A stretch of 64,000 bases of DNA from assembly GCF_000711225.1 (NCBI RefSeq), contig NZ_JOMG01000002.1, positions 2,740,501-2,804,500 on the forward strand, in the 5' to 3' direction. Numbering within the stretch: the stretch's first letter is position 1; each line of letters begins with the position of its first letter. The notes beneath the pieces are model-generated. The model did not search any database. It saw nothing but the letters and a program-made list of their open reading frames with translations, and was not told the origin of the DNA. The stretch is from Pelobacter seleniigenes DSM 18267. GTDB taxonomy: Bacteria; Desulfobacterota; Desulfuromonadia; Desulfuromonadales; Geopsychrobacteraceae. The translations under genes were made by a program, and so were the position numbers. Positions 2,657 to 26,766 of this stretch are shown in pieces.

Positions 2657-2678
2657 AGAGAACCTCTCCACGATTGAA

Positions 2679-5354
2679 TTAAAGGGTTGCGAACGCTTTT
2701 TCCAGAATCTGCTGCTGCTCGATCTTGTGAATACGGTGCGAGCCGACTGCGGTACTGGCGGAGCGTTTGCGGCCGACATACACCGGTTCCTTGCCGATCA
2801 GTTCGCGCAGCAGGGGGCGTAAATGGTCCCAGCCGCCACCGTTGCCGGGTTCCTCCTGAACCCAGTAATATTCCACATCGTTCCGGTATGGTGCCAGGAT
2901 CTCCTGGAGCAGTTCCGTGTGCAGCGGATATAATTGTTCGATGCGGACAATGGCAACGTCGTTGTGGCCACCTTCGGAGCGCTGGTTGAGCAGTTCATAA
3001 TAGATTTTGCCGGAGCAGAGCAAAACCCTGCGGCAGTCGGTCGGCGCGAGATCGTCAGGGAGGATTTCGCGGAAATGGCCGCTGCTCAGCTCGGCGAGGC
3101 TGGAAACACAGGCCGGGTGGCGCAGCAGCGCCTTCGGAGTGGCCACAATCAGCGGCCGCCGGTAAGCGGTCCTGACCTGGCGGCGCAGCACGTGAAAAAA
3201 TTGGGCCGGGGTGCTGGGATTGACCACCTGCATGTTGTTGTCGGCGCAGAGTTGCAGGTAACGCTCAATGCGCGCGCTCGAATGTTCGGGGCCCTGGCCT
3301 TCGTAGCCATGGGGGAGGAACATAGCCAGACCGGTCGGACGATCCCACTTGGCCAGGCTGCTGGCAATGAATTGATCGATAATGACCTGGGCGCCGTTGG
3401 CAAAATCACCGAACTGGGCTTCCCAGATGGTCAGGTCGTCCGGGGTCTCAACGGAATACCCGTAATCAAAGCCGAGCACCGCTGCTTCCGAGAGCATGCT
3501 GTTGAAGGCATCAAAGCGGCAGCCTGCACTGCGGGCGATGTCGGCCAGGGCGGTGTACTCCCGGCCGGTTTTGATGTCATAAAGGGTCGCATGACGATGG
3601 TTGAAGGTGCCGCGCCGGGAGTCCTGGCCGGACAGGCGGATCGACGTCCCTTCATTGACCAGGCTGGCGAAGGCCAGGGCTTCGGCGGTGCCCCAGTCGA
3701 TGGCCTGTTCCTTTTCGGCCACAACGGTACGGCGTTTCTTCAGCAGCGTGGCGATTTTCCGGTGCGGGGTAAAATCGGCCGGGATGCTGGTGAGGGTTTC
3801 ACTGAGTCCTTGCAGGGTGGTTTCGGCGACCCCGGTTTCAACCCGCTTGAAGCTGAACTCGCGGTCAATGTGCGACCACTGTTTGAGGAAGATCTCGTGC
3901 AGGGGACAGATCTCGCGGTTCAGGGCTTCTTCCAGGGCCGCATCAATATCATCGGCAATTTTCTGCAGTTCCGCTTCCTGGAATCCTTCGAACAGCAGCT
4001 GGTTCTTGTAGATATCGGCAGTCAGCGGATGATTCTTGATCTTTTCGTACATCAGCGGCTGGGTGAAGAAGGGCTCGTCCCCTTCGTTATGACCGTAACG
4101 CCGATAGCAGATCACTTCAATGACCACATCTTTGCGAAATTTCTGGCGGAATTCGATGGCCATGGTGGCGGCCTGAATCAATGCTTCCGGATCATCGCCG
4201 TGGACATGGAAGATCGGCGACATGAGCATTTTGGCGATATCGGTCGGATAGCAGGTCGAGCGGGCGTCCACGGGCAGGGTGGTAAAGCCGATCTGGTTGT
4301 TGATGACGACATGCAGGGTGCCGCCGGTTTTATAGCCGGCCAGCTGCGACAGATTGAGGGTTTCCGCCACGATTCCCTGCCCGGCGAAGGCCGCATCTCC
4401 GTGAATCAGCAGCGGCATGGCGTTGTATTCACCGTTGTCCATGCGGTCCTGGCGGGCGCGGCATTTGCCTTCGACCACCGGATTGACCGCCTCCAGGTGG
4501 CTGGGATTAGACGCCAGCGAGACATGGATGCAGCCGGAGGTGAAGCAGCGGTCGGTGGAGTAGCCTTTATGGTACTTGACGTCCCCTTCGCCGACGATTT
4601 TATAGCGTTCGTTATCGGCAAATTCGGCAAACATGTTTTCGAGGGGTTTTTCGAAGATATTGGCCAGGACATTGAGCCGGCCACGGTGGGCCATGCCGAT
4701 GACGACATGTTTCATGTTCATGCTCGCCGCAGTTTCGATCAGGTGGTCGAGCAGGGGAATGACCGATTCCGCCCCTTCCAGCGAAAAGCGTTTCTGGCCG
4801 ACGAACTTCCGGTGGAGAAAGGATTCGAACTTGCTCGCCTTGAGCAGCATCTTCATGGTGGCGAGTTTTTTCTCCCTACTCAAGGCTGAACGGTTGCGAG
4901 CTTCTTCGGCTTTTTCCTGCAGCCATTTGCGCTCTTCCGGAATGGGAATGTGCATGAACTCCATCCCCAGGGAACTGCAGTAGGTCTGCTTGAGAATATC
5001 GACGATCTCTTTGAGGGTTGCCTGCGGCAGGATAAAGTTGTCGGTCGCAAAGGTGCGGTTGAGATCGCTCTCCTCAAGCCCGAATTCGGAGATCTGCAGC
5101 AGGGGGTGTTCCAGGGAACAGGGGGTCAGCGGATCGACACAGGCATAGATATGACCGATATCGCGATAGCGGCGGATCAGTGACTGGACCGCGGCCGGTT
5201 TGTGGTCCGGGGCGAGACTGTCGCGGTTTTCCATTCCCAGCTCAAAGCCTTGAAAGAATGATCGCCATTCTTCCGGAACCTGTTGCGGGTCGGTTTTATA
5301 CAGCTGATACTGGGATTCGATCCACTGTGGACTGGTACTGTCAATTACGCTCAT
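2679..5354 (-). CDS. sucA: 2-oxoglutarate dehydrogenase E1 component
   Basis: Thiamine-diphosphate enzyme that decarboxylates 2-oxoglutarate and succinylates the E2 lipoyl arm. The 891 residues are close to the usual 900-940. The E1 N-terminal segment (SPQWIESQY) is present. HRGRLN (223-228) and the ThDP/Mg motif GDAAFAGQG (from 319) with NNQIGF (352-357) are intact, and GHNEGDEP lies further on. It is the first gene of the sucA-sucB-lpdA operon. The 165 bp between it and the upstream thioesterase gene are AT-rich and probably hold the promoter. A complete OGDH complex implies a TCA cycle able to run oxidatively. Confidence 0.97.
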   Translation of the reverse strand: MSVIDSTSPQWIESQYQLYKTDPQQVPEEWRSFFQGFELGMENRDSLAPDHKPAAVQSLIRRYRDIGHIYACVDPLTPCSLEHPLLQISEFGLEESDLNRTFATDNFILPQATLKEIVDILKQTYCSSLGMEFMHIPIPEERKWLQEKAEEARNRSALSREKKLATMKMLLKASKFESFLHRKFVGQKRFSLEGAESVIPLLDHLIETAASMNMKHVVIGMAHRGRLNVLANIFEKPLENMFAEFADNERYKIVGEGDVKYHKGYSTDRCFTSGCIHVSLASNPSHLEAVNPVVEGKCRARQDRMDNGEYNAMPLLIHGDAAFAGQGIVAETLNLSQLAGYKTGGTLHVVINNQIGFTTLPVDARSTCYPTDIAKMLMSPIFHVHGDDPEALIQAATMAIEFRQKFRKDVVIEVICYRRYGHNEGDEPFFTQPLMYEKIKNHPLTADIYKNQLLFEGFQEAELQKIADDIDAALEEALNREICPLHEIFLKQWSHIDREFSFKRVETGVAETTLQGLSETLTSIPADFTPHRKIATLLKKRRTVVAEKEQAIDWGTAEALAFASLVNEGTSIRLSGQDSRRGTFNHRHATLYDIKTGREYTALADIARSAGCRFDAFNSMLSEAAVLGFDYGYSVETPDDLTIWEAQFGDFANGAQVIIDQFIASSLAKWDRPTGLAMFLPHGYEGQGPEHSSARIERYLQLCADNNMQVVNPSTPAQFFHVLRRQVRTAYRRPLIVATPKALLRHPACVSSLAELSSGHFREILPDDLAPTDCRRVLLCSGKIYYELLNQRSEGGHNDVAIVRIEQLYPLHTELLQEILAPYRNDVEYYWVQEEPGNGGGWDHLRPLLRELIGKEPVYVGRKRSASTAVGSHRIHKIEQQQILEKAFATL

Positions 5355-26256: not shown

Positions 26257-26506
26257 AGGGTTGTTTCCTTTCTGGCTGGTGTATCTCTGTCAGCAATTAA
26301 TGACCTGTTACACATTTGCTCTTTGTTCCTTTTTTTGATTAGCGCAATCTTAAAAGGTATATTTAAAAATACCACATAAAAAGCAGTCACAACAGGTTGT
26401 TATCTATTCTCTAGTAAGTTTTGAAATATTTTTGGGAGCGGATTCCGATTATTGTTTACAAGACTACCGATTTAGTAATATTTTTAACATCAATTAAATT
26501 CCGATA

Positions 26507-26574
26507 AGAGCAAAGCCGGAGCAATCCGGTGACGCAAAACTACGGGTCCCACGAGGATAGCCGGGTTGCCGAAG
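26507..26574 (+). ncRNA. GEMM-I cyclic dinucleotide riboswitch aptamer with A at the ligand-selectivity position
   Basis: The aptamer core is recognisable. GAGCAAAGCC is followed by a hairpin CCGGA-GCAA-TCCGG, a GNRA loop as in known GEMM P1b. GACGCAAAAC follows (the conserved ACGCAAA with the intercalating A47), then a second stem and GCCGGGTTGCCGAAG, which keeps C92. By the numbering of the Vibrio Vc2 aptamer, the base equivalent to G20 is A here (G-A-G-CAAA instead of G-G-G-CAAA). That change is characteristic of GEMM-Ib aptamers that prefer 3',3'-cGAMP, known from Geobacter. It lies 193 bp upstream of the MCP start codon, with a terminator between. Confidence 0.88.
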
Positions 26575-26591
26575 ATGAAACAAAGCCCCTG

Positions 26592-26625
26592 AAGCCTCTC
26601 TTCGCATCCGAAGAGAGGCTTTTTT
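26592..26625 (+). terminator. Riboswitch expression-platform terminator
   Basis: Perfect 13-bp stem AAGCCTCTCTTCG/CGAAGAGAGGCTT with a 4-nt loop, running into TTTTTTG. It begins 18 bases after the aptamer. The aptamer's 3' end (CGAAG) can pair with the terminator's CTTCG, giving a plausible anti-terminator switch. Ligand binding would then set read-through into the chemoreceptor gene. Confidence 0.88.
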
Positions 26626-26766
26626 GTTTTGAACGAAAACAATGGCAGCTGCTCGGTGCTTTTGCTGAAAAGGAATTCCCCGGTTCGGGATCACAGCGGG
26701 CTTTCCGGCGACGGAATAAAAACGGCGACTTTTGGTCATCCTCAATCTTCTACTAGGAGAGTTACC

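Follow-up and report, generated by a model that had tools for sequence, protein, structure and literature searches.

A gene for a methyl-accepting chemotaxis protein lies in the window (the whole stretch of 64,000 nucleotides that was analysed) behind a leader that contains a GEMM-I aptamer and an intrinsic terminator (Table 1). The aptamer, which an earlier note had proposed ahead of this gene with a start at 26507, begins 8 nt further upstream; it matches the Rfam family RF01051 (c-di-GMP-I) with 63.7 bits (E 4e-10, gathering score 35) and is the sole match over gathering score given by cmscan in the window, falling narrowly under the cut-off of RF03167 (c-di-GMP-I-GGC; 58.7 bits vs 59). Its bases are numbered here in what we take to be the Vc2 numbering. 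The reading of an A where Vc2 has G20 was upheld by the Rfam covariance alignment, in which a G might have been found instead: the consensus has G and the window aptamer has A. The base of P2 is formed by G21:C46 and C22:G45 in the alignment of the genome's aptamers. When the 11 ligand contacts listed for 4YAZ (PMC7288161) are transferred onto the window aptamer through that alignment, nine are the same base, the exceptions being U13 and C15, both replaced by G.

Table 1. Features of the leader and of the receptor gene, in positions of the window
Feature	Position	Strand	Basis or remarks
Weak sigma-70-like promoter match, candidate	26455..26484	+	TTTACA, 16 or 18 nt, AATATT or TATTTT
GEMM-I (c-di-GMP-I) aptamer	26499..26573	+	cmscan RF01051; alignment with the genome's 10 other aptamers
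Key aptamer bases, Vc2 numbering (presumed)	A20 = 26509, G21 = 26510, C46 = 26535, A47 = 26536, C92 = 26569	+	alignment
Tail of the aptamer (CGAAGA, the P1 3' strand), candidate antiterminator	26570..26575	+	predicted fold; complementarity to the terminator arm recurs in relatives
Intrinsic terminator, 14 pairs, then T-run	26591..26622	+	5' arm includes UCUUCG (26599-26604)
Methyl-accepting chemotaxis protein, 679 aa	26767..28806	+	TM, ~270-aa helical sensor, HAMP, MCPsignal

The three-helix fold is backed by compensatory changes among 81 matches (75 distinct) at the 72 A20/G21 site loci described below, a set that includes a few other GEMM-I types and was aligned by fitting to the model: 12 of 20 pairs changed on both sides, 96.9% of the cells were paired, and none of 500 shuffles showed compensatory change as high as that observed. 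Three sigma-70-like matches were found vs a shuffled mean of 1.0 (sd 1.1), which alone is not significant. The strong terminator lies 18 nt downstream of the aptamer, as had been noticed, and is complete without any aptamer sequence. The receptor follows it in the arrangement previously described, with a measured gap of 144 nt in place of 142, and its ATG stands behind an AGGAG ribosome-binding site.

The receptor carries MCPsignal (PF00015, 163.8 bits vs a cut-off of 34.6) and HAMP. Its sensor stays under the Pfam cut-offs of 4HB_MCP_1 (26.3 vs 27) and HBM (23.7 vs 29.8), two families that both match all 10 receptor homologues scanned with E 0.01 or better. No relative of the sensor domain was found in the PDB at E 0.01, and a search of genome contigs with the receptor found no relative; homologues of the sensor part occur in 18 other genomes among the 136 of the order, with 31-42% identity. 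Conservation of the aptamer together with this receptor was considered and rejected: upstream of 23 homologous receptors (1500 bases for 18 of them, 419-1145 for the other five) no A20 aptamer was found, and the single GEMM-I aptamer there has G20 and precedes a cheW-mcp pair (L067, 601-1620).

GEMM-I aptamers and candidate cGAMP synthases of the genome

The assembly (5.09 Mb, 6 contigs) holds 11 GEMM-I matches, ten over the cut-off and a weak one (L011, 32 bits). Once aligned, five of them have G20, the weak one included, and six have A20, the latter being of three kinds according to the base of P2. The window aptamer and L004 have G21:C46 with C22:G45; L006 has G21:C46 with U22:A45; L008, L009 and L010 have C21:G46 with U22:G45, in agreement with the crystallised 4YAZ. 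L010 is located ahead of an ORF with nine CxxCH motifs. The tandem 4YAZ-type aptamers L008 and L009 (G000:C2:717484-717700, minus strand) are upstream of an outer-membrane efflux/SPOR gene, and a small ORF with one CxxCH motif lies between them and that gene. L006 stands shortly before two ORFs (L052:1372-2526 and 2671-3855) with six CxxCH motifs each, OmcS-like by eye, and no separate strong terminator was found at its locus. It may be the counterpart of the omcST riboswitch of Geobacter, which is reported to respond to both cGAMP and c-di-GMP (PMC6456294).

The earlier note had proposed from A20 that the element may be of the GEMM-Ib type and sense cGAMP. The A20, the leader layout and the candidate synthases described below speak for that proposal, whereas two traits of the Geobacter type are missing: the window aptamer has G21:C46 in place of C21:G46, and its terminator, 18 nt downstream, is not the ON platform built from the aptamer 3' strand. 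To take C21:G46 as a requirement for the class is our own reading and not a published rule that we encountered. Lacking both traits, the window aptamer is not made a member of the Geobacter GEMM-Ib type by A20 alone.

The only GGDEF gene in the window has the motif GHAAGD, with the canonical Asp that had been ascribed to it, and a cGAMP synthase would accordingly have to be sought elsewhere, where candidates are indeed present. A genome survey gave 41 GGDEF matches, the motif region being read in 40 and a 27-position fragment under the cut-off being left out. Two of the proteins, L046 and L049, both encoded outside the window, bear Ser at the Hypr position. L046 is a REC-GGDEF protein (GHLAGS...GGDEF) whose gene adjoins an ORF that is hisS-like by eye; the PDB entry that it matches best is 6d9m, a GGDEF structure with GHLVGS (E 3.6e-45; next match 5.2e-37). 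We take 6d9m, a T4-lysozyme fusion, to be GacA of G. metallireducens. The fusion is described in PMC6456294. L049 is a HAMP-GGDDY protein (AGS...GGDDY) and resembles in make-up the second cGAMP synthase described for G. sulfurreducens, GSU1937, which has HAMP, Ser and GGDDF (PMC8835794), the likeness being one of description. The GacA-like L046 and L049 are thus candidate cGAMP synthases with predicted activity. A further GGDEF protein, L018 (G000:C2:1390603-1391073), has GHQVGN, that is, Asn where the canonical residue is Asp and the Hypr residue is Ser.

GacA-like matches occur in 116 of the 136 genomes of the order at E 1e-70, and Ser is present in all 35 GacA-like proteins read (30 of 30, including the window genome's own, and 5 of 5). 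With the gene near-universal, co-occurrence cannot identify the ligand, and its use as ligand evidence was dropped as uninformative: over the 136 genomes, in lists compiled by hand, A20 sites and GacA-like matches were associated with a Fisher p of 0.011, and the G20 control, among the matches listed, with p=0.0018. Restricting the test to the 97 genomes in which a scanned GEMM is among the matches listed gave p=0.27 for A20. Two genomes (G014 and G100) have A20 sites and no GacA match at E 1e-70. In one family (f7, G027-G040) none of the 14 genomes gives a GacA match at E 1e-70 or an A20 pattern site, and at least four have G20 sites; this joint absence is suggestive, the genomes being too few for significance.

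Expression platforms and the sign of regulation

The A20 pattern AGCAAA...GACGCAAARCYAC, run on the 136 genomes of the order, gave 72 sites in 48 genomes, and the reversed control pattern gave one. A search at class level, run on 200 genomes with a completeness of 90% or more, added 24 further rows, covered by 22 regions. From a Geobacter-like genome (G155) 13 regions were fetched, in which 18 of 19 GEMM-I matches were read and 15 of those 18 have C21:G46; a C21 aptamer was found in 56 named stretches titled Geobacter, Geomonas, Citrifermentans, Desulfuromonas, Desulfuromonadales, Deltaproteobacteria and similar. The aptamers were placed with a covariance model made from the genome's own aptamers, and terminators were then sought by script.

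All 18 A20/C21 aptamers examined (15 from G155, three from the window's own genome) contain the terminator's 5' arm, which makes the bound aptamer and the terminator mutually exclusive, an ON logic. On the other hand, the terminator is separate at 80 of the 96 distinct A20/G21 sites and overlaps the aptamer at seven, and for nine none was found. Of the 80 separate terminators, 27 carry UUCGG, the complement of the tail CCGAA, in the 5' arm or loop and two carry it in the loop or 3' arm; CCGAA itself never occurs in their 5' arm. This layout fits antitermination and an OFF logic. The G20 control, 52 aptamers among the matches listed, has the same platform type as the A20/G21 aptamers, with 41 separate terminators, two overlapping, nine cases with none, and UUCGG distributed 21 vs 0. 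The base of P2 and the type of platform appear to divide natural A20 switches into two groups that differ in their targets and are opposite in platform, which goes beyond the original observation. No description of the A20/G21 subgroup was met among the matches listed in the literature searched, the founding cGAMP riboswitch and GEMM discovery papers lying outside its scope.

At the window locus the aptamer tail is complementary to the 5' arm of the terminator. In the predicted fold of the transcript as far as 26605, where the 3' arm is still to be made, CGAAGA pairs with UCUUCG; after the 3' arm is transcribed the terminator prevails, and in the unconstrained full-length fold it is already formed. 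The candidate antiterminator has a 6-bp core vs the 14 pairs of the terminator, hence switching would have to be kinetic, and since tail and arm pair only until the 3' arm is made, the switch is best read as kinetic and OFF. The window terminator has UUCGC and not the full UUCGG. On one side tail and arm show weak covariation (106 pairs vs 102 shuffled, 19 of 2000 shuffles), on the other none (103 vs 108.6 shuffled), and at most transcript lengths tried the plain energy model fails to recover the aptamer's native fold; the OFF reading therefore relies on the placement statistics and on the precedent of Cd1, the c-di-GMP switch in which the ligand-held aptamer frees the terminator (PMC9262584).

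Taking the locus and its relatives together, we propose that the element is an A20 GEMM-I transcriptional OFF switch of the chemoreceptor, with 3',3'-cGAMP as the probable ligand and c-di-GMP as a possible cross-reacting one, and we give this reading a probability of about 0.5. In the model, when the ligand is absent the 3' strand of P1 would pair with the emerging UCUUCG and delay the terminator; when 3',3'-cGAMP, likely made by the GacA-type enzymes predicted in this genome, is bound, P1 would be kept in the aptamer, the terminator would form and the receptor would not be made, through which the switch would act on behaviour. The sign, on which the earlier note was silent and for which the platform points to OFF, would probably be opposite to that of the well-studied Geobacter cGAMP switches. 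A ligand that instead prevents termination, so that the receptor is made at high cGAMP as in Geobacter, would agree with the fall of the genes behind GEMM-Ib switches on deletion of gacA in G. sulfurreducens (PMC6456294) and with pilM, a cGAMP switch whose terminator needs an aptamer strand and which is ON (PMC9262584). That arrangement is hard to reconcile with a window terminator that starts beyond the aptamer and is complete without it, when the A20/C21 terminators use the aptamer 3' strand in all 18 cases examined, and we regard it as quite improbable. A preference for cGAMP, be the switch OFF or ON, seems from these comparisons a somewhat better than even proposition.

Target genes of A20 and G20 aptamers

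For each aptamer the longest ORF that begins no more than 650 nt away was used as the first gene, an assignment that may be wrong in individual cases. The 72 A20 sites of the order gave 68 proteins; four had no ORF of at least 60 aa in the stretch used, one of them (in G085) solely through duplicate removal, which kept the copy at a stretch end. The 68 A20/G21 proteins comprise, in Pfam domains with multiple counts allowed, Response_reg 15, GGDEF 13, EAL 11, HAMP 10, PilZ 5, HisKA 5 and MCPsignal 4, and no CxxCH motif or multihaem cytochrome was found among them; outside the order, two of 24 A20/G21 sites precede ORFs with six and eight CxxCH motifs (L311 and L317). For the G20 control 40 regions were picked by hand among the matches listed, one from each of 40 genomes and approximately the first there to leave space downstream; they held 45 aptamer groups and 44 proteins once two A20 aptamers and one unclear match in these regions had been left out. 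Among these 44 proteins surface Ig, cadherin and fibronectin domains lead, with Response_reg 3, HisKA 3, PilZ 2 and MCPsignal 1.

With the G20 aptamers again those among the matches listed, A20 and G20 are mixed in four of 20 target families with several members, vs a shuffled mean of 12.2, and none of 5000 shuffles was as low. The test was repeated with one site (L346) relabelled or dropped, an A20 aptamer being located there between a G20 aptamer and the gene; relabelling gave five mixed families of 20 and one shuffle in 5000 (same G20 matches). Few families mix the two bases, hence base 20 travels with the target, a contrast that may in part be shared descent. The site itself (L346:260-592, in G011), with G20 and A20 aptamers in tandem before one gene, is a possible two-input switch.

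GGDEF proteins follow A20 more often than G20 when counted per protein (13 of 68 vs 1 of 44, p=0.008) and not significantly when counted per protein cluster (4 of 41 vs 1 of 30, p=0.39), in both cases against G20 among the matches listed. One cluster of 10 A20 proteins, nine of them with a GGDEF motif, carries most of the excess, and it is not claimed to represent independent events. The canonical Asp is present in all 12 A20-controlled GGDEF domains with a readable motif, out of 13.

Chemoreceptors follow four of the 72 A20 sites: that of the window and three more, L173, L174 and L175, which belong to genomes of a different family and whose receptors have dCache sensors unlike that of the window. 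All three of these genomes have a GacA-like protein with Ser. G20 aptamers precede chemotaxis genes as well, namely the cheW-mcp pair mentioned above, an MCP gene (L378) and a CheW gene (L380). Hence the pairing of GEMM-I with chemotaxis is recurrent and not tied to A20. One genome (G109) has both an A20 aptamer before an MCP gene (L173) and the G20 aptamer before the CheW gene, an arrangement suggesting that chemosensory components of a single cell are under two cyclic-dinucleotide switches.

Ligand and comparison with known systems

The recurrence of chemotaxis genes behind G20 aptamers is also what an ordinary c-di-GMP riboswitch would lead one to expect, A20 being then a tolerated change: c-di-GMP control of motility genes would predict it, Rfam scores the element as c-di-GMP-I, and its OFF platform resembles that of Cd1 (PMC9262584). 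Against this, A20 is found again at 72 sites, spread over 48 of the 136 genomes of the order, and is kept with the target family, and G20A is the known GEMM-I change towards cGAMP, Vc2 with G20A as its sole change having been crystallised with cGAMP as 4YB1 (PMC6274999) and a cGAMP sensor built on a G20A GEMM-I having been tabulated (PMC11352751). We consider this explanation very unlikely.

An OFF switch for two ligands deserves more weight. An aptamer with A20 and a Vc2-like G21:C46 might sense cGAMP and c-di-GMP at physiological levels, so that the receptor would follow the summed pool. A protonated adenine allows cGAMP riboswitches to bind c-di-GMP, and point changes in the lower P2 shift selectivity (PMC9262584); omcST is reported to be sensitive to both ligands (PMC6456294), and L006, before its OmcS-like pair, likewise has A20 and G21:C46; a G. 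metallireducens strain in which cGAMP was lower and c-di-GMP high showed a rise of several genes for which activation by cGAMP is predicted, and the authors suggest that c-di-GMP binds too (PMC12285248). The single platform type of G20 and A20/G21 aptamers and the tandem of both before one gene in L346 are in line with it. The conservation of base 20 with the target family, on the other hand, suggests that the two bases cannot replace one another, and the measured omcST aptamer is likened here by description and not by sequence comparison. Such dual sensing is possible but rather unlikely in our estimate, and we retain the OFF switch with a preference for cGAMP.

We tentatively extend that reading to the A20/G21 RNAs as a whole, which might form a separate group of the Desulfuromonas-Geobacter lineage, cGAMP OFF switches of signal-transduction genes such as those for response regulators, GGDEF/EAL enzymes, PilZ proteins and chemoreceptors, in parallel to the A20/C21 ON switches of electron-transfer genes; we hold this somewhat less firmly than the proposal for the locus itself. 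If true, one messenger would raise respiration genes and lower genes for sensing and c-di-GMP turnover in the same cell, and cGAMP would act, with the opposite sign, on the sensing layer of metal-reducing bacteria besides their electron-transfer proteins. It would also warn against reading the workings of a GEMM-I switch from base 20 alone.

Among known systems, the Geobacter GEMM-Ib type represented by 4YAZ shares with the window aptamer the GEMM-I fold, A20, nine of 11 ligand contacts and a host with Hypr-type GGDEF genes. P2 of 4YAZ spans C15 to G40 (PMC6274999) and its ligand contacts include A14 and C15 (PMC7288161). The window aptamer differs from this type in having G21:C46 and C22:G45 where it has C21:G46 and U22:G45, in a separate terminator with a tail-complementary 5' arm where those of Geobacter are built from the aptamer, and in controlling a chemoreceptor where theirs control cytochromes or pili. 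In omcST a GEMM-Ib switch also answers c-di-GMP (PMC6456294), and the aptamer at the similar locus of this genome, L006, combines A20 with G21:C46. Compared by description, omcST differs from the window in its target, the OmcS/T cytochrome pair.

The engineered Vc2 G20A (4YB1) likewise combines A20 with G21:C46 in a pocket that is otherwise of the c-di-GMP type; the likeness is one of sequence, and the window aptamer is natural and has its own expression platform. The Cd1 aptamer of Clostridioides difficile, which has G20, belongs to another organism and operon and binds c-di-GMP. In its platform it is the closest parallel to the proposed OFF switch, since terminator and aptamer can coexist, the antiterminator uses an aptamer strand and the target, flagellar genes, is related to motility (PMC9262584).
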